This document shows positions 34,526 to 49,500 of a stretch of 54,895 nt of DNA, one piece after another (positions within the stretch are counted from its first letter, which is position 1; the number at the start of each line of letters is the position of its first letter). The position numbers and the translations under genes were made by a program. The stretch spans positions 35,001 through 89,895 of the forward strand of contig CALSCQ010002252.1 of NCBI GenBank assembly GCA_943704525.1, given 5' to 3'. The notes under the pieces were generated by a model. It was not told the origin of the DNA. It made no database searches and saw nothing but the letters and a program-made list of their open reading frames with translations. The stretch comes from Pigoraptor vietnamica. Lineage: Eukaryota > Opisthokonta > Filasterea.

Positions 34526-35053
34526 CAGCCGCACATGCCGCTCGCCATCGCGTCGCTGCCTGCCGTCCTGCGTCTGCGCTGCGCTGCTCTGCGTTTGCCG
34601 CCCGCGTCTCGTTGCGTTTCTGCGCGCGCCCGCGTCTTTCTCGCACGTCCACTTTTGCTTTCTCTTGTTTATCGTGTACGTAATAGTTGGCGTTGCTGCG
34701 TCGTTTTGGTTTTGTTATTGGTTGGGATGCCACGTGTCCCGTACTATGCCCGCGCCGAATTTTCGAGGCTCTCGCGAGTTTCCTCGTGTCGGTGACACTT
34801 GATCTGCCGCCGCGCGTTATTGCGTGCGTTTGCCCGCGCGTGACTCAATGTAATCACCGCAACGCGGTGTTGTAACTTGAAATGCCGGCTGTACTTGGGT
34901 CGCGTGCGTGTGCTGCGTCCGCCTAGCACGCGTGCGCACGAACAACAGTTCCACTGCCATGGGAAGACCTTACTAAAATGTACCGCGAAGAAGTCCATCT
35001 GCAGCACACGCGTGCTCCACGGCGCACAGCATAAGACGACCGTTCATTGCGCC
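34526..35053. other. Convergent intergenic region, phosphodiesterase and TIM44 3' ends
   Basis: Shared 3' untranslated sequence of two converging genes. I see no ORF with protein character, no RNA gene and no repeat. Confidence 0.5.
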
Positions 35054-38361: not shown

Positions 38362-41284
38362 ATGGGTCTCTGGACCTCATGCCGGCGCCTCTGCCCCTTT
38401 CGCCGGGTCCTCTTCCTGACGATCGCGGCCCTGCTTTCCGTCAATCTGCTCGCTCTCGTTTATATGCAATCGAGCACGACTGGGCCCGAAGCGCCGCGCG
38501 AACGTCCACCGATCGTCACAGTAGTGATACGAGACTTTATGTTCTTTCGCAACAACGTGCCCGGGACTGTCGCTGCCGTGAATCGCGCGCTTCCGTCGGC
38601 GAAGGTTCTTGTGGTCTCGCGCGGCGTGCCCTATCCTCCCATTGAGCTTTCGCAGGGGAGCCATGCGACGGTGGGTGATAGTCGTGGGTGCGTCAAACAG
38701 CACGTGGACCACTGAACGGCTTCTGTCGTAGATTTTGTTGCTTGCGCTCGCACCCCCGAGTGTGTTCTCAATGCGTTCGCGCGGGATGACATTCGCGTCG
38801 CCTACTACTGTACTTGGGTCACTGCCTCATCGTGTCTCACTGTAGCTCGTAAAATTCGACTGAGCAGTTTGTCAATGTTGCGGTTGTTCCCGGCGACAAC
38901 CACACGCTGCACCGCGCGGAAACCTTCATCACGACGCCCTACACGCTCGTCCTTCCCGACAATGTCTTCCCGTCGAGCGACGCGGACGTTGTCGCTATGG
39001 TGAAGACGCTCGAGGCGCACGCAGGCGCGAGGGCGGCACACGCAGACAGGGGGGTTCGTATCGCCGCCGCACAGGTCGTGGCGGAGGGAGAGGACGGCCG
39101 TGGCGGCCATTCGGGCGCGCTCTGCAAGTGCCAAGCGATGGACTTTGACGTGAGGCGATGGACGCTGACGGTCAACTCTGCCCATGGCGCCGTGTTGCCG
39201 TCACCGGTGGTACGTGTTCGACCTAGCCCCAACCCCCCAAACTGCTTGCGTCTTTGTGTGTTGTGCTTGTTATTTAGGCTTGCCTCCTCTGTCTCAATGC
39301 GTCTTTCCGCTGTATGAGATTGCCTGATGTACAGGCGACTATGCACTGCTTGTTTCCTATTCATCCACTACTTAAATCCACAACTTTCCCTCTTCCATTC
39401 CGTTGCAGATCTGCGGCGCTGTGCGGTGTGCGACGTGCCTGCGCCAGGCGCCAATTCTTCTCGCCACGAGGGACCTCTTGGCACTCGATTGGGACGCGTA
39501 CGATAGGATGACGTCAGAGGCCATCTTTGCGCAGGCGTCCGCAAGGAATTGGAAGGTGTGCTCGTGTGCATGTGCATGCTTGCGTGCGCGTATGCGTGTG
39601 ATATATAGACTATGAGAGAGAGAGAGAGAGAGAGTGTGTGTGTGTGTGTGCGTATGTGTGCGTGTGTGATTACATGTGTGTGTGTGTGTGATTATACATG
39701 TGTGTGTGGTGTGCGCGTGTGTGTGAGCTCGTGAGGCCACACCGCGTCAAATGGTCACAGTATGTACGGTGCAAATGATGTGCGGCAAAGAGTGTGTCCT
39801 CATCGGCCCACATGCGCCGCCATTTGTCACACCAGGTCGCCTTGCACGAGTCCTCTTCGTTTGCGGCCGGCACACCGCTCTTCGACCACGACGAGCACCT
39901 TAAGTGGAAGGCCAACCGCGACTTTACGAACTCAAAACGCGCCATGAACGCACGTCTGGGCATCAAACTCGTTGTCGAAAGTTCCGGCGTGGGAGAGCCC
40001 AAGCGCGAGTTCTTTGGTACGTGTGCGCAGGGTGGATTTCGCTCTGCATTCAGGAGAAGAGGAAGAGTCGAACGTCAATGACATGGTTGATAGAGAGGGA
40101 CTGTCAATCGTTGCGTTGACGCACCCGCGCCTCCCTCTCGCGTGCCAGGCTGCAATCGGAAGGGCCCGCGGTGCTTTGGGACTGTCGTCGATGATGCGCC
40201 GGAATTTCTGTATGCGGGAAGGTGGGAGTTGCACGCAGAATGCGCAGCGCACACACTGCCGGCGCAACACACGCAGACCCACGTACCCACACTGCTGTGC
40301 GTTCTTTTGCCAGTCGCACTCACGTCGGCTGATCTCAGGTGGACGCCTCCGTGCTGCCTGCACGCCATCCGCACGACGGGACGGCATGTGATCAACCGCC
40401 TGGAGGAGGCCGGAGTGCGCTACTGGCTTGAGGGTGGCACATTGCTCGGAGCGATGCGCAGCGGCGACATCATCCCTTGGGTGTGTGGCGCTCCGAAGAC
40501 GTGCACATGTAACGCAACGAAGAACACGTGTGCAATGTGTTATGCGAAGAGCACCTGTGTGTCTTCTCCCATGCGCAGCGTAGACTGGCACGCCTGTCGC
40601 TTGGTGTGCGTGCGTCCTGGATATTTGCTGTTGGATGCGAGTTTGATCAATCGCCGCACTCACGTCGCAGGATTACGACATGGACATTGGCATTTTCGAG
40701 GACGACATTGCCCGCCTCCCCGAATTGGCCGCCGTGCGCAAGCTCGCAAAGGGCGGAACGAAGACGTTCGACGGCTTTGTGTGGGAGAACGCGCGCGAGG
40801 GCGCGTTTTTCCGCGTGCAGTACAGCGAGGCGAACCACCTCCACGTGGACCTGTGGCCGTTCCGGGAGCGCGCGAGTGACGGCATGATGACGAAGGACAC
40901 GTGGATGGCGACGCATCGGCAGGACATGGAGTTCCCGTCGCACTTTTTGAAGCCGCTGCACCGGATGGGTGGGTGTGGTGCTCGTGCGGCTGTTTGTTGT
41001 GCCCATCCTTCTCCCTTTTATCCTCTGGGTTGCTGCCGTTCCTTGAATCTCTGTGGGAGAGTCCCAAAACTCGTGGCGTCAGCATGATACACACGAATGT
41101 TCTTGAGGGTCGCGGTGAATTCGCTGGACGCTGACTTCATGCTGTTGTCCGCTCGGCAGAGTTCATCGGGATTGAGGTGTCCGTGCCGAACAACGCGCGC
41201 GCCTTTCTCGAGCTCAAGTTTGGCCCTGGCGTCATTGAGAATCCGCGCTTTCCCGGCGGCGCCGAGCACATCAGCACTGGCTGA
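38362..41284 (+). CDS. FKRP: Fukutin-related protein-like ribitol-5-phosphate transferase (LicD family)
   Basis: In animals FKRP transfers ribitol 5-phosphate from CDP-ribitol onto the O-mannosyl core of alpha-dystroglycan in the Golgi. Exons are 38362-38670, 38868-39209, 39409-39555, 39836-40016, 40149-40221, 40339-40480, 40671-40968 and 41160-41284, giving 538 residues (human about 495). Residues about 16-35 are a signal anchor ([20 protein letters not shown]), as expected for a type II Golgi protein. A stem/GT-like region follows. The LicD core begins about 352 with [18 protein letters not shown]. It continues with [20 protein letters not shown] and [11 protein letters not shown] with the metal-binding Asp pair. 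[29 protein letters not shown] and [17 protein letters not shown] follow. These runs are nearly those of animal FKRP, more specific than generic LicD similarity. Its neighbour is the partner enzyme LARGE. The donor sugar remains to be shown. Confidence 0.93.
39611..39725 (+). repeat. GA then GT dinucleotide tract in FKRP intron 3
   Basis: A run of GAGAGA changes into imperfect GT repeats with ATTA interruptions, on the sense strand. It lies within intron 39556-39835. Confidence 0.9.
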
Positions 41285-41564
41285 GAGGGCTCCTTCGCAG
41301 CCGAAGGCAGTACTCTTCCTACTCCAGCCCGAGCGCTCGTGCGGACGCCCACGTTCCTCTTACGGCCACCATATCTTCTCGCATAACTGGGATTGCGCAC
41401 GCGACCCATGTGGGCTTGATGCTCATCGGCCGGCCAGGTGCAAGGCCGAGACGACACAACGAGAAACGACGCGAATACGGACGAGATGGGCACTAGTTTG
41501 AGCGCTGTTCATTAGCACATGCGCACACAAGAGAATTCTTTCCTTCTCACGGACGATGCGGGCG

Positions 41565-44500
41565 TTACGACTTGCGCCCCATCTCTTCCATAAACTCCTT
41601 CTTGAGTCTGGCCAAACACATCTGTGCGCACGTGGCCGTGATGAGGAGGTGAATGGTTGATGAGCATCCAGCACGCGGAGGTGAGGACAATCCAACGAGA
41701 GGACGATAAAGACGAACGGAAACAACGGAGACAAGGCGCAGAAGGGGAGGGTTAACGGAGACAAGGCGCAGAGGGGGAGAAAGACCCCGCAGCGCACGCG
41801 CACAGTACGACGGAGCGGAACGGCCGGCACACGCACCCTGTAGAGCTGGTTCTTCCTGAACTTGCGGATGTCGAGCGAAGGGCTGTGCGGCATGTGCACA
41901 ATAAAGCCCTCCGGAATGACGACAAACTCATAGCCCTTTTTCGAGAGCTCGTAAATGTGCGAGACTTTGTTCCAGCCAAAGCCCACAAACCGCGTGTCGT
42001 ACCTGCCACACCGCCAACAATAAGCCATCAAGTCATCGCGATTCACAGCTCGGCAACCTGACATGATGTTGTCCCACAACACACTACCCACACGCACCCG
42101 TCCCCATGCAGGAACTCACCTCTGCACGTCGCGGCGCACCACAATGTACGGCTCAAAATCCGGCGCCCACTGGATCGTGTACGGGCGCGACGCCGTTCGC
42201 CACCGGTCAAAGTCGGTCGGCGCGTGCCCCTGCGGCCACTCGTTGAAGCGGAAGGTCGTGACGTCCCGCGTCTCGACCATTTTGAAAAGATCCGCCTTTG
42301 ACGCGGGCATCGCAAACTTGTACTTGAACGTCTCGAACGCAGGGACCACCAGCGCCTTCTGACCCTCCGCCATGCCCGTGCTGGCGATTGTGGCTCTGCA
42401 GGGGACGAGGGGTTTATCAGGCGAGAGGGCACCGCGACAAAACCGAGAGACACTGCCACAACACACAACAAGACATGAGGGCACGGACGTGCCCTCACCG
42501 CAGCGTGCTGTAGAGGTCCTTTGTCGGGAGAAAGTCAATGTCGACGAGGAAGGCGAAGGGTGTCCGGACTTCGTCGAGGGCGACGTTGCGCAGGTAATTG
42601 ATGGGAAAGAAAATCTGCCGAGATGGCGGAGGATGGGCGTCAGCCATCCGGCAACCGTTCGTCCAACTGAGAATTGACCACGCGCACGCTGTACCACTCT
42701 CCGCTTGTGGAAGTCCGTGACGTTTCAGCGCATGCACATCACTCAATTCGACACGTGCCAACGCGCCGCACAAGCTGCCACCAACCCACCCCCTCCACGT
42801 AGATGAAGTGATAGCCAATATTCTTCCGCGCGGACAGCGTAGGCGAGCTCTCGATGTATGTGCTCACTTGCGCCGCATCTGCGTCAGTGAGGTAGATCGA
42901 GAGCGACATGGGACCTGCACGTGCCACGCGAGCAGAGTATGCGTTAGAGAGACGAGCGCACGGCCGATGCCTTTGTTGCAAGAACAATGTCGCGACAGAG
43001 CACTCGAGAACGCCAACACACCTTCCCAGTGCTCTGCAAGCGGCTCCAGCATCACCAGGCGGTCCAGCGAGAACTGGGTAACGAGCGTTACGTCGTCGTT
43101 CGATTGCTGTCGACATCAAAGTGCCGGTGAGTGACATATACCGCGAACACGGCACGCGCATAAGACTGAACGCACACAAGCCACGCAGTTCCTGCACACG
43201 CCACGTAAGGTTACAAACGCACCGGCGGCTCTTCGTAGTCCTCGTAATAGAGGTGCGTGCGGTAGCGCGTGTCGGCGGCCTTGCGAAACTCGATGCATTC
43301 GTCGTACACCGTGTTTTCCTTCTCCGCCCCGAAGCGGGGGCACGCGAGCAGCTCACGGCGGAGAAGCCCGCCATCGTACTGATGGAGCGCAACAGGAAAC
43401 CACCGTGAGAATGGGGTGCTGATGCTCGTACAGCTTGTCACACACGCCCGCACGTCCCGCACGCCCGCACACACGCACACCAACAATTACACAGAACGCT
43501 CACCTGCGAGAAAGTCGCGACAAACAGGCGGAAGAACTCAATGTTCTTGTTGGCGACGGCAGTCTTCTTGGGCGAGTTCCAGTGCACCACTCCAATCTGC
43601 AGCAAACAAGCACACAAGAGCATTCACACACACTGTTGAGCCGGAGCGAGCAACGCACAAGACACCACAAAGCACATAAAACGCCTGCACCCCACCGTGC
43701 CACGCTCCCTGTAGCACACGTCGGCGAGAGAGTTGTCGCTGAGCTGGATGTTCCACTCGCACGGCAGGCGATACACGATGCGCGGGTTCTCCTTGATGAC
43801 GGCGTTGATGACGTCCTGGTCCGCGAGGTGCGTGATCTTCCGCCCCGGTTCGCGCTGCTCGAGCTCCGCGCGCGCAGTCTCCAGCCACACGCGGTCCCAC
43901 TTCATTTTGCGCATGCGACCGAGATCCATGAGCATGACGCCCGTGTTGAACCCGACGCCCACAGCCGGCCACGGGTGGCTCGACTTGAGCTTGCCCAGGT
44001 ACCACTCGCTCTGGTTCTCCACCAGACCCAGCACCTGATCCGGCTCGAAGCGCGAAAAGTGCTCCCACAGCTTCGCAATGTCCGCGCCAAAGACGACGTC
44101 GGTATCGAGCGTGATGAGGCGTTCGACGTCCGGCAGCGCGACCTCTAGCGTCAGCTTGAGCAACCCGAACACTCCAGAATAGTGGGACGTGGGAATCGTC
44201 GCCACTCGGTTGCGGTAATCGTCTGTCTTGTAATACGACGCCGTTACATGAGGGACGTGCCACGTCGCAAATAGCACGCGCAAGATGCGCTCGGACGCAT
44301 CGTCGACGAGCAGGTGCAAGTGCAGCGGGTGTTGGCGATAGAAGAGGATCGACTTTAGCACAGCCACCACCGATCTGCAGTGCGGTGCGTCAGCATCGCC
44401 GTTGTCACACGAGCATCCCAAGGGGTAGCGCGACATGAAAACACACGGGCTTGAACAACGCATACACACTGGCCATCAGCGCAACTATTCTCCCTCGCTC

Positions 44501-44787
44501 ACCGGCTCGACTTGTACCCAGCACAGACGATGGCGATGTGAATCGTGTCACAGCGCCCCAGCATTCCGTCGCCGTTTTCGCCGTTTGCGTCCGCGCACTG
44601 CACAGCACCCGACCCTGCGCAAATTCCACGCAATCAGGCAAAATACCCACGACGCAGTCACTTTACAAGGGGGATCGTCACCTCGCGTTGTTCTTGGGAG
44701 GCCATCTTTTTGGTAGAGTGTAAACGCAACAACGACACCGACCACAACCGCCAGCCCAAGCCTTCTACAAAGGGCGGTCGTCCGCAT
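41565..44787 (-). CDS. LARGE: LARGE-like bifunctional xylosyl/glucuronyltransferase (GT8 + GT49)
   Basis: In animals LARGE polymerises matriglycan by alternately adding xylose (GT8 domain) and glucuronic acid (GT49 domain). Exons are 44787-44682, 44614-44503, 44374-43696, 43596-43504, 43378-43223, 43106-43022, 42914-42790, 42614-42499, 42395-42120, 42002-41837 and 41621-41565, giving 656 residues. The signal anchor is about residues 10-26 ([16 protein letters not shown]). The GT8 domain runs from [14 protein letters not shown] to about residue 330. It has DTD at 163-165, [21 protein letters not shown] and VVHWNSPKK. The GT49 domain has DID (about 476-478, in [12 protein letters not shown]), [38 protein letters not shown] and [16 protein letters not shown]. 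Both catalytic DxD motifs are therefore intact. The protein is about 100 residues shorter than human LARGE1, mainly at the N-terminal stem. It lies 280 bp from FKRP, tail to tail. An upstream in-frame GTG is not a plausible start. Confidence 0.94.
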
Positions 44788-45418
44788 GCTGACCGTGCGA
44801 ATAGGGGCGCCGGCACCCACGAGAGCACAAAGGTATTACCGCATGTGACAGATTAGCCACGGTTGGCTGCTGCGGTAACTGCGGACTCGTGCTCAACAGC
44901 GGGAGAGTATGAGAGCTATCAATAAATGAGAATGGGAACCGCTTCTCACGTGTGCATGTAGCCCAATGAGAGCAGTGAGTGCAGCTCAAGTCGACGGGTT
45001 GAAATCGCCGATTCGCGTCGGTGCCGGTAGAAGGGTGTGTGGAATAGAAGCCGCAGCTGTCAACCCACATGACATGTGGACACCGAGTATTATATTGAAA
45101 CACCCTCAAAACTGGCCCCATTTCAGACGTTTTCAATTCCGATGTATAGTAACATGATACTAAACTGAGACATAAAATACCATCATTTACTTATATGAAG
45201 AATGGGGAAATATTGTACTTTGTATAGAGATTATCTGACATCAAAATCCCAAAATGGCTACAAAGCGATGACGCTAGCCCCCTTGTTCTCACACACACCC
45301 TCGCATAGCGACAGCTGGGAGCGCACACCTGCGTGCACACGTGCGACACTCTATTAAGTCGCCCCCACATTCAAACCTTCTCTACAGTGTGTCCCAGAGA
45401 CACTGTGAAACTCCAAAC
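44788..45418. other. Divergent promoter region between LARGE and the cystatin-like gene
   Basis: Both genes start at its edges and read outward. About 45130-45260 is AT-rich. I see no RNA gene, repeat or convincing ORF. Confidence 0.5.
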
Positions 45419-46360
45419 ATGCGCACCGCCATTCTCACTCTCGCCGTCGCCGCGGCGCTCGTCGTGGCCTCGGCCGACGCGTTCCGCGCCGGCTCTCCGC
45501 GTCCCAAGGGATTCGGCACGCACCGCGGCGAACGCGGCATTGTCGGTGCTCCGTCGGAGATTCCCACAGACAGCGCCGATCTGTCGCCACTGTTGGAGTT
45601 TGTGGTGATGCAGATGAACCGCGAAAGCAATTCGCTTATGAAAATGGTCCCCGTGAAGATTGTCTCGGCGAGCAAGCAGGTCGTCGCAGGCCTCCTCTAC
45701 AAGATTACGTTCACCGCGGGCCTCTCGCGCTCGTGCTTGAAGGACGACCGCCTGTCGACCGTCGAGGAGTGCCCCGTGGGCGACGTGCAACAGTACACGG
45801 CCGACGTGCTCGTGCAGGCGTGGGCCAAGGAGGCGCCCGTCAAAGTCGTGCGCATCACGCCGAACCACGAAGCCGTTCCCGACGGTAGCGTCCCTGGCGG
45901 CGAGCTCCCTGTCGACGTCTATTCGGACGACGCGGCACAAGATGCGCTCGAGTTTGCGCGCAAGACGGCCGAGACGAACGTGGCTGCGACGGCGCCCGCG
46001 CTGCGCGTGACGGTCACCAAGGTGTTGTCTGCGACGAAGCAGCTCGTGAACGGGCTCGTGTACGACTTTGAGTTCCTCGCAAACGTGCGCGCGGAAGGCA
46101 GCAACGCCGCGGGTGCGACCGAGCGCATCAGCGCGCGCGTGCACCAGGCCCTCGGGGAGAGCCGCCCGCTGAACATTCTCGACATTGAGCGCCACCCAGA
46201 GTGCGGCACGGGCGTGCTGGGCCTCGCCGAGTTCGTCGGTGCCGATTTCGTTGCGGATGGCGAGGGAGCGCGTTGCGTGTCGGGCGAATACGCCGGCTGT
46301 GCCACGCCGTTTGCCTTTGCGTCTGTCGAAGACTGCAAGGTGTCCGCGGACAACGCGTAG
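45419..46360 (+). CDS. Secreted protein with two cystatin-like domains
   Basis: Likely inhibitor of papain-type cysteine proteases, or a secreted protein built on that fold. It is intronless, 313 residues. Residues 1-21 are a clean signal peptide (MRTAILTLAVAAALVVASAD, small residues before the cleavage site). Two units of about 110 residues each carry the QxVxG-type first inhibitory loop in a matching setting: VKIVSASKQVVAGLLYKITF and VTKVLSATKQLVNGLVYDFE. The first unit has a conserved-looking cysteine pair after the loop; the second unit has cysteines only near its end. The cystatin Pro-Trp second loop is not obvious in either. No anchor is visible, so the protein should be secreted or lysosomal. 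The start follows the signal peptide; an upstream in-frame non-ATG extension was ignored. Confidence 0.78.
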   Translation: MRTAILTLAVAAALVVASADAFRAGSPRPKGFGTHRGERGIVGAPSEIPTDSADLSPLLEFVVMQMNRESNSLMKMVPVKIVSASKQVVAGLLYKITFTAGLSRSCLKDDRLSTVEECPVGDVQQYTADVLVQAWAKEAPVKVVRITPNHEAVPDGSVPGGELPVDVYSDDAAQDALEFARKTAETNVAATAPALRVTVTKVLSATKQLVNGLVYDFEFLANVRAEGSNAAGATERISARVHQALGESRPLNILDIERHPECGTGVLGLAEFVGADFVADGEGARCVSGEYAGCATPFAFASVEDCKVSADNA

Positions 46361-46566: not shown

Positions 46567-49500
46567 TCAAGGCACACAAGGGCCTCCATCCATCGCAGCC
46601 GACAGCTCGGCCACAACGGCGCTGAGATGAGGGGGAATGGGCACGCCGTCAACCAGTCCGTGCGCATACGCAGCAACGGCCGTTTCGGCGGCGCGCACCG
46701 CCTGCGTGCCACCGCCGAACGCGGCGCCCCACTTGCGCTTCTTGTCGTTGGTGGTGTCGACCGCAGGACGCCGCGCAGACGCCAGCATGCCGGCGAGGAG
46801 GTGAACGATCTGCGAGCGCATGAAGATTCGAGTCAGCGACCATGGAAAGTGAAAACAGCGTGAAGGGAAAATTGATAGCCAACAGCGCAACGGCAGGGAC
46901 ACAAGACAAACAGACGACAGGACAGCGGCATGCTTGACACACGCACCTTCTCCCACAAGGGAGTGCTGCGGCTACGAACGACACGCGAGAACGGCGCAAG
47001 AAGCGCGCATACAAAGGACGCGGAGAGGCTGGTGAACGTGGGGGCTGCGGCCTGCACGGCCTCCACAATCACGCCTACAGCGCCAATGCCGCCGTACGCC
47101 GCATACACATGCAGAAGGGCGACGAGACGCGACGTCCAGGGCTCGACCACCGAAATGGCGCGGGTCCCGCACGCCGGCGTGCCTTCGTCGCACGTGCACG
47201 AGGGGCGAAGCCAGTCCGCCGCCGTGTCATCGCAAACGCAGGCGAGCGCCCGCTGCAGGATGCCGACCAAAATGGGGCCCACGACGTCGGCGGGAAGTCG
47301 GCTCAAGAGCGCTCCCACCGCGTGGAGCACGTCGCGCGGTCCAGCAGGGTTGTCCGGAAGACGCGGAGTCGCATAATGTCCCGGCGCGCGCGCGTCACGC
47401 TGCTGGAGGAGCGAGGCCTCCGCCGCCGCCAAGACGTCCGCGGGGATGCCATCGAGGGCCATGGTGACGAGACGAGTGCACAGCGTGGGAAGGCCGACGG
47501 GGGCGGCGAGCATCTCGCACGAGGCCACCAAGAGCAGCCGCGAGCGCGGGCACGAGAATTCGCTGAAGCGCCAGTCCGGTTGGAGGCGCTGGCGAGTGTC
47601 GTCCGCCACGACGTCGGAGTGCTCGCCCGTCCACAAGTCGCACAGTCGACGCGCGAGCCGCAGAACAAACGACGCGAGGTAAGCCGGCTGCGACGCGAAC
47701 TCGAACAGCTGCGCCGCGTTGGGCGAATTCGCGCGGACGGACGACACGTAGGCGAGGAACTCTGGGGTCAGCAGCCAGTGCGCTCCCGTGTTCCACGGCT
47801 CCACGTCGGCCACCCCAAACTCCTTGTTCACGTGCGCGGGGGGTACCGCATCTCGCACGAGCAGCGTGGCGAGGGCCGTCCGCGCGAGCACCGCCATCAG
47901 CTCCACCTTGTCGTCCAAGAGCGGGTAGTACGAGAGGGTCGAGTGCACGAGCGTCACGGGAATGTCGTGGTAGCGATAAAGCGCGCCGTACAGGTCGGCG
48001 ACCGCGTGGACGGCGCCGGCCCTGTCCGTCGGTCGCTCGGCAAAGTGCTCCAGGCACAGCGACACGAACGCGTCCAGCGACGGCAAGAGCCGCAGTGCGT
48101 AATCCCCAAAGTACACGAGCGACGGCGGCGGGCTGTTGGCCGCCCCGCCGCGCATGGTCGCCACCTGGCGCGTGCGGAGCGCAAACAGCGCCGAGGTCCA
48201 GGGAGCCGGCGGCGGCCGCGCGCCCTGCCCGCTCGCGTCGTCCGGCAGAGGGCCGCAGAGGGGTTCCGGCGACACGCGAAGGTGAATGAATTCCGAGACG
48301 CGCCGGCACGAGTGGACGTTCGACTTGCCGGGGTTCAGGAGAAGCTTGACAATGTCCATGGCGCGCGAGAGCGCCCCGCCTTCGTACACGCCGCGGAGCA
48401 GCGCGGCCATCACGAGGTCGAGCGGCACGAGGCCGTACGCGAAGCACAGGTCGTCGAGCGACTGCACCTGCGACGCAATGTCCGCCGCGTCTCTATGCTG
48501 GGCGTCCGTCTGGTCGACCACAAAGTCAACGAGCGCGGGGATGGCCGAGAGGAATGCGCCCGCCCCCATGCCGTCCACCGCGCGACGCACGGCAGACGCG
48601 TTCAGGCGACGGGTCGTGTCGGTTTGGAGACGATACACCGCCCGGTACACGGCGGGGAGCAGCAGGCGGTGCGCATCCGGCTCGGAAAACTGCGCCACAA
48701 ATGACTCGACGAGCGCGGCGTCCGCACCCTCAAACAGCGCGTCGACGCTCGCCAGCGCTTGCACGTCGGCGGCCTGGTGGGTGTCGGAAAACAGACAAGG
48801 GGGGAAGTGAGCGCAAACTAAGTGAAGAAGACAGCACGGATGATGACAGAAGAAAGCGGGCCGTGGCCAATCCCCACGCACGATGCATCGCGCGCACCCA
48901 ATGCGTGCATGATACCCACCTTGATTTTGGAGGCCTCGTAGGCGTCCCTGTGCGCCGCCGCCCTCGCCGCATAAAACGACCGCATCGGCTCGGGAAACTG
49001 GCTCGCGGCCGCTTCGCTCCATCGCAAGTGGTGGCCCCAGGCGTCTTCCACGCGTTGCAAGAAGGCAACAACGTCCTCCGGCCCGAACATGGGCGTGGAG
49101 AACAGACCGCTCCTCCTTATGGACGCCGCCAGCGCGCGCACGACCGCGCGAACGAGCAGCTCGTTCGAGAAGCGGCCGACGAGGCCTTCGGCAGCGGGCG
49201 CCCTGAATGCGGCGACTTCGCCGCTGAAGGAATCGGAGGCCAGCTTGACGGCCGCACTGAGGAGGTCGTGGGCCAGCGCAACGCTCGCCGCCCTCCGCGA
49301 CCCGTCGGCGAGCAGGGCGACCACGTGCGAGAGTCCCGGTGAATTGCGGATGCAGCGTACGAGGCGGAACGACACCATTTCGGCCAGAACGTGCGCGGGA
49401 AGGGGCGACCGCCGCATATTATCGGGGGACAGCGCCTCTTGAAGCATGGGCACGACGCGATGGAGCGACGGAGGCCACCCGGCATTGTCCGTGAAGGGGG

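Follow-up and report, generated by a model that had tools for sequence, protein, structure and literature searches.

Neighbouring FKRP and LARGE orthologues in the filasterean Pigoraptor vietnamica, likely parts of a ribitol-phosphate/matriglycan pathway

Matriglycan serves animal cells as the handle for gripping the basement membrane through dystroglycan. In animals, FKRP adds ribitol-5-phosphate and LARGE extends the polymer of xylose and glucuronic acid (Xyl-GlcA) on alpha-dystroglycan, and both are human muscular-dystrophy enzymes. Here, we describe orthologues of the two genes lying next to each other in a 54,895-nucleotide stretch of DNA (the window), which covers positions 35,001 to 89,895 of contig CALSCQ010002252.1 (contig C933 in our numbering) in assembly GCA_943704525.1. 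The host is unicellular, as had been supposed from the DNA alone: it is the filasterean Pigoraptor vietnamica.

Enzymes of this kind have been described in unicellular holozoans before. The available text of PMC4582122 reports POMK, B4GAT1 and LARGE1 in choanoflagellates and Capsaspora, these three being the glycosylation baits that its methods name for Capsaspora, and it reports dystroglycan as absent from Capsaspora and two choanoflagellates. Section 3.1 of PMC8478517 assigns the core M3 enzymes except LARGE2 to choanoflagellates, and ISPD is missing from the 13-enzyme table of that paper. Pigoraptor and dystroglycan are both mentioned in PMC8061703, and a broader literature search gave no further paper joining the two among the best 20 of 460 matches. 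The Pigoraptor genes resemble the choanoflagellate and Capsaspora sets (available text of PMC4582122 and PMC8478517) in that glycosylation enzymes occur in a unicellular holozoan, here one whose genome gave no dystroglycan match over the family cut-off, but differ in that the set was traced gene by gene and that FKRP and LARGE are adjacent. In this way, a named filasterean joins a known pattern, each gene being traced individually and variants being added. New are the pathway set in Pigoraptor, the linkage of FKRP and LARGE (which may be chance), a second LARGE that has lost the GT49 DXD motif, and an ISPD whose chain continues into a reductase that looks intact. We consider it likely (probability about 0.75) that FKRP and LARGE represent two steps in a ribitol-phosphate/matriglycan pathway that is nearly complete, shares common ancestry with that of choanoflagellates and animals and acts on an acceptor other than dystroglycan.

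The FKRP and LARGE genes of the window

The gene models for FKRP and LARGE were built from splice signals and homology, and the features of the locus are as follows (window coordinates).

38362..41284, plus strand: FKRP orthologue, 538 amino acids, 8 exons (splice model, homology, Pfam)
38362-38670, 38868-39209, 39409-39555, 39836-40016, 40149-40221, 40339-40480, 40671-40968, 41160-41284, plus strand: FKRP exons
40149..40480, plus strand: FKRP exons 5-6 with their intron, holding the zinc-finger loop (TPPCC) and the hG[GS]-type motif EGGT and reaching the splice site before DYDMDIG (sequence; human C289, R295, C296, C317 and C318 aligned)
40671..40968, plus strand: FKRP exon 7, holding DYDMDIG (human D360/D362/D364) and the equivalent of human D416 (alignment; available text of PMC6965139)
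41285..41564, no strand: spacer of 280 base pairs (bp) between the convergent FKRP and LARGE stop codons (gene models; stops and distance re-read)
41565..44787, minus strand: LARGE orthologue (GT8 and GT49), 656 amino acids, 11 exons (splice model, homology, Pfam)
44682-44787, 44503-44614, 43696-44374, 43504-43596, 43223-43378, 43022-43106, 42790-42914, 42499-42614, 42120-42395, 41837-42002, 41565-41621, minus strand: LARGE exons

The FKRP model runs in a single open frame from the ATG at 38362 to a stop codon ending at 41284, and 7 of its 7 introns are GT..AG. On the minus strand, the LARGE frame is open from the ATG at 44787 to the stop ending at 41565, with 10 of 10 introns GT..AG. On re-reading, the distance between the stop codons was exactly that given in the original prediction, and the tail-to-tail arrangement is real. 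Judged from their sequences, chance is excluded as an explanation of the FKRP and LARGE genes themselves.

The structure of human FKRP (6kaj) aligned with residues 47-532 of the Pigoraptor protein (E 1.5e-104), and Pfam recognised both the FKRP_N stem (PF22921, E 8.8e-45) and the LicD domain (PF04991, E 2.3e-16). Within the alignment, the catalytic Asp362, Asp364 and Asp416, the zinc-finger Cys289, Cys296, Cys317 and Cys318, and Arg295 (human numbering) are identical in Pigoraptor; the roles of these residues are described in the available text of PMC6965139. All three core motifs first quoted for this gene were found, one of them extending to a splice site. The N-terminal signal anchors proposed for FKRP and LARGE agree with a hydrophobic N-terminal segment in each (19-residue Kyte-Doolittle means of 2.4 and 2.04, respectively), and we keep them as candidate anchors. 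The protein shares with animal FKRP (human 6kaj) the stem domain, the LicD/nucleotidyltransferase (NTase) core, the three catalytic Asp, the C4 zinc-finger loop with its Arg and the N-terminal hydrophobic anchor, whereas the Pigoraptor gene has 8 exons and lies in a genome without a dystroglycan match over the cut-off. Its features identify Pigoraptor FKRP as a full-length true orthologue with catalytic residues retained, a putative ribitol-5-phosphate transferase.

The structure of human LARGE1 (7ui6) aligned with residues 52-655 of the Pigoraptor LARGE (E 1.2e-227), and the sole other molecule reported for this structure match was XXYLT1 (E 4e-12). Pfam placed GT8 (PF01501, E 1.4e-18) and GT49 (PF13896, E 9.1e-50) on a single polypeptide, where the catalytic motifs DTD and DID occupy residues 163-165 and 477-479. 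Their surroundings, LDTDVVF and VDIDFLP, align with LDTDITF and SDIDFLP of Peromyscus LARGE1; the DXD motifs of human LARGE1 are numbered D242-X-D244 and D563-X-D565 in the available text of PMC9746966. Pfam and alignment agree on the GT8 and GT49 motifs that had been read from the frame at the outset. Like animal LARGE1 and LARGE2 (human 7ui6), the protein carries both domains in one chain, both DXD motifs and the HWNSPKK histidine, and unlike animal LARGE1 it has a shorter N-terminal stem, the alignment beginning at residue 52 as against 138 in the human chain. Pigoraptor LARGE is a full-length true orthologue with catalytic residues retained, and a putative xylosyl-/glucuronyltransferase.

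A quick FKRP tree was made from 24 rows hand-chosen from the best 120 of 382 matches, in which two EukProt rows are labelled choanoflagellate-like from their header style. Pigoraptor grouped with Capsaspora and one further protein (Shimodaira-Hasegawa-like approximate likelihood-ratio test, SH-aLRT, 96), and 18 animal rows lay across another branch (SH-aLRT 95). The top E-value among the FKRP matches listed also belonged to Capsaspora, at only 36% identity in a range of 36-43%; only the E-value and the tree path, and not percent identity, tie FKRP to Capsaspora. In a quick LARGE tree of 22 rows, Pigoraptor LARGE fell outside 20 animal rows (SH-aLRT 90), the rows being without Capsaspora or choanoflagellate LARGE, the best test rows, and the outgroup, a Pigoraptor paralogue, being a very long branch. 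Both genes fall with FKRP and LARGE, respectively, and not outside these clades, with the LARGE result subject to that choice of rows.

These trees bear on whether the contig is animal contamination, or whether FKRP and LARGE reached Pigoraptor by transfer from an animal. Such an origin would fit the 49-54% identity of LARGE to the best 120 of 1519 matches, among which there were no named protists, and the percent identity of FKRP, which is 43-46% with vertebrates and only 36% with Capsaspora. However, FKRP has its top E-value with Capsaspora and groups with it, LARGE falls outside the sampled animals, the recognisable neighbour genes are ordinary eukaryote genes, and one gene of the assembly encodes a product identical to a EukProt Opistho-1 entry (see below). 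An animal origin is highly improbable in our judgement, and contamination was rejected on the grouping of FKRP with Capsaspora and the position of LARGE; the two trees and the Opistho-1 identity speak against animal DNA. Kinetoplastid genes are mostly without introns, so this intron-rich contig is unlikely to derive from the prey and culture contaminant Parabodo, a bodonid and thus a kinetoplastid. According to the available text of PMC7147346 and PMC9492541, Opistho-1 is Pigoraptor vietnamica, Parabodo caudatus was present in its culture, and contaminating sequence was removed from the published assembly.

Pathway homologues elsewhere in the genome

The whole 32.5-Mb assembly was searched for further enzymes of the pathway. 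Human ISPD matched four colinear exons on contig C177 (55-69% identity), and the protein has an IspD domain (E 4.4e-38). For fukutin, the match (50% identity, E 1.6e-25) covers 84 residues of the C-terminal part and lies where contig C324 breaks off. RXYLT1 lies on C664 (PF24785, E 2.3e-47), its N-terminal domain PF24786 barely passing the cut-off of 25 (25.1 bits, E 2.4e-5). B4GAT1, on C1195, is 67% identical to the human protein across the last 93 residues (human B4GAT1 323-415), compared with 23-29% when human B4GAT1 is set against other loci and the window LARGE. On C1096, a POMGNT2 fragment of two exon pieces, joined by eye, matched POMGNT2 (7e9j) at E 2.1e-33 and EOGT at 9e-4; a second GT61 protein was seen on C987 (L054:49-1947).

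All six ribitol-phosphate and polymer steps (ISPD, FKTN, FKRP, RXYLT1, B4GAT1 and LARGE) have a homologue, fukutin as a fragment; at the core M3 start, POMGNT2 is present and a POMK query gave weak kinase-like exons only. The genome search suggested by the original prediction recovered ISPD, fukutin (C-terminal end only), RXYLT1, B4GAT1 and POMGNT2 homologues, all on other contigs, and an absence of all other pathway enzymes, including the supply of cytidine diphosphate (CDP)-ribitol, is not what the genome presents. Dystroglycan gave nothing above the DAG1 family cut-off (PF05454) in the genome, the single sub-threshold match (E 0.043, 16.8 of 23.3 bits) falling in a stretch whose reading frames, by eye, have an EGF-like look. 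Searches of the genome with the ISPD families PF01128 and PF18706 also gave no match, and the whole-protein query then recovered the gene. Because these families missed an ISPD that was later found, family-level negatives are weak in this intron-rich genome, and the same caution on family-level and exon-level negatives extends to POMK, FKTN_N and DAG1.

A second LARGE-like gene, on C229 (L037:536-2671), is one open frame of 676 amino acids from one candidate ATG. This paralogue keeps the GT8 DTD, and its GT49 DID is replaced by DGT, suggesting that it may be a xylosyltransferase only. The GT49 family is large in the genome, with 34 exon-level matches on 15 contigs (loci L001-L008, L027-L038, L040, L049), which are partly clustered (contigs C390, C269 and C1263). 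Four further LicD-core loci were also seen, L009 (C462), L010 (C794), L011 (C597) and L012 (C572), not evidently FKRP or fukutin, and the proteins on C462 and C597 have a hydrophobic start by eye.

Near the FKRP-LARGE pair itself, Pfam found no other pathway-enzyme domain in any of 30 larger open reading frames (20 in the window and 10 upstream on the contig, many of them without any family), in line with the original prediction. The neighbourhood might be functional, for instance as a conserved pathway pair or through coupled 3' ends, and among eight pathway genes only 0.004-0.007 adjacent pairs (about 0.5%) are expected by chance if a genome of 8,000-14,000 genes is assumed. On the other side, the two genes have no promoter in common because they are convergent, the remaining pathway genes lie on separate contigs (C177, C324, C664, C1096 and C1195), all short though, and the adjacency is a post hoc observation, the pair having been spotted before testing. 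The adjacency may be due to chance, and we hold a functional linkage to be doubtful.

To the right of LARGE lie a cystatin-domain protein (window 45278-46357, plus strand) and a Med23-like exon (46836-49418, minus strand). Elsewhere in the window there are matches to MutY-like, TRIP12-like, DENN, phosphodiesterase, GNAT and Cid1-type polymerase proteins.

An ISPD fused to a reductase

The ISPD gene on C177 (L021:3286-6882) has 14 exons, and its reading frame runs on into a complete short-chain reductase (SDR superfamily). The reductase looks intact, as the nucleotide-binding glycines, NNAG and YxxxK are all present, and SDR motifs are absent from 7 of 7 sampled animal ISPDs (six vertebrates and one cnidarian). 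The spliced product is identical over all 470 residues to the EukProt protein Opistho-1_new@80942, which we take to come from the transcriptome of the species; this single protein is what links the assembly to Opistho-1. A quick ISPD tree grouped Pigoraptor with Capsaspora (95), and by tree path the cnidarian ISPD was nearer to Pigoraptor than every bacterial row. The Capsaspora relative (71% identity) is called notch1-induced protein in NCBI. Another IspD-SDR protein near the filasterean rows, P0260, keeps the glycine motif and NNAG and is without the tested YxxxK pattern; it is possibly a half-decayed intermediate.

The bacterial CDP-ribitol synthase Acs1 of Haemophilus, a cytidylyltransferase plus ribulose-5-phosphate reductase (available text of PMC4873967), likewise combines an IspD-type cytidylyltransferase with a reductase on a single chain. 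In contrast to Acs1, which is likened here by description, the Pigoraptor ISPD-SDR is eukaryotic, is encoded by 14 exons and groups with Capsaspora. It is predicted that the Pigoraptor protein could also make ribitol-5-phosphate from ribulose-5-phosphate, SDRs being enzymes that act on many substrates.

The C-terminal domain of animal ISPD (ISPD_C) was compared with the reductase by profiles, using C-termini picked from the best 120 ISPD matches listed. Eighteen SDR-type against 90 animal C-termini gave E 0.0026 and a score of 26.4, joining C-terminal end to C-terminal end. None of 150 column-shuffled controls reached this score (maximum 20.9), and the reversed control gave E 0.088. With smaller sets (8 and 11 rows) the comparison gave E 0.0016, and the control of the IspD part versus ISPD_C gave E 0.43. 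The HHalign probability was low (11-16%), and the best 50 fold-comparison entries listed, which SDR chains fill, did not include human ISPD (4cvh). Given the low HHalign probability, the idea that animal ISPD_C is a decayed reductase domain is suggestive only.

Proposed pathway, acceptor and implications

By analogy with the human pathway, POMGNT2 would extend O-mannose, and CDP-ribitol from the ISPD-SDR would feed fukutin and then FKRP, which would lay a ribitol-5-phosphate tandem on the O-mannosyl core. RXYLT1 would add xylose and B4GAT1 GlcA as priming steps, and LARGE would polymerise Xyl-GlcA repeats in the Golgi. The acceptor would be some molecule other than dystroglycan, which is the natural reading because dystroglycan was not found above the family cut-off. 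The proposal of a related polymer on another acceptor is partly supported, the pathway homologues being present and dystroglycan not being found above the cut-off; the polymer itself is a predicted product. The chances seem to us about even that filastereans produce, without dystroglycan, a polymer of the matriglycan type fed by a bifunctional ISPD, combining ribulose-5-phosphate reduction with cytidylation of ribitol-5-phosphate.

The orthologous enzymes might instead make something else, such as short Xyl/GlcA caps or ribitol- or glycerol-phosphate on N-glycans, mucins or lipids. The expanded GT49 family, the four further LicD loci and the want of a dystroglycan match over the cut-off would all suit such a product, as would the failure to recover POMK, which LARGE1 needs for efficient action (available text of PMC8478517). 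We nevertheless think another product unlikely, since RXYLT1, which in humans transfers xylose to ribitol-phosphate, and POMGNT2 are both present, and both LARGE active-site motifs are intact.

Several observations weigh against a nearly complete pathway inherited in common with choanoflagellates and animals. The human POMK query hit only two exons, both kinase-like and weak (E 0.004 and 0.035), in an exon-by-exon search that can overlook a divergent gene, yet POMK is reported in Capsaspora (available text of PMC4582122). The fukutin gene is truncated by the contig end, so that only its C-terminal part is seen, and its N-terminal family PF19737 (FKTN_N) had no genome match at E 0.001, as likewise in 0 of 14 control genomes. 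The GT49 expansion may mean that several GlcA glycans are possible. By percent identity FKRP is nearer to vertebrates, as given above, the platypus row being the highest in the tree set (46%), and no named Pigoraptor protein was among the best 120 of 382 FKRP matches or the best 120 of 1519 LARGE matches. Besides FKRP and LARGE, the pathway members sought in the genome were ISPD, fukutin, RXYLT1, B4GAT1, POMGNT2, POMK and dystroglycan. Finally, the DNA itself shows which genes are there, that they are orthologous and that catalytic residues are kept, whereas what the enzymes do, in which order, on which acceptor and with what product is inferred from the human pathway.

In 2016 it was still undecided which mammalian reductase forms ribitol-5-phosphate (available text of PMC4873967), and the ISPD-reductase fusion is relevant to this question; a bifunctional ISPD, if true, would explain the need of animals for another source of ribitol-5-phosphate. 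The fusion also suggests how the CRPPA C-terminal domain may have arisen, a domain that holds 18 of the 32 variants of one patient series in the available text of PMC12921627. If a filasterean makes matriglycan, the glycan would be older than its carrier. Capsaspora is open to transfection and editing. If our reading is true, the first job of matriglycan would become open to study in single-celled organisms, Capsaspora included.

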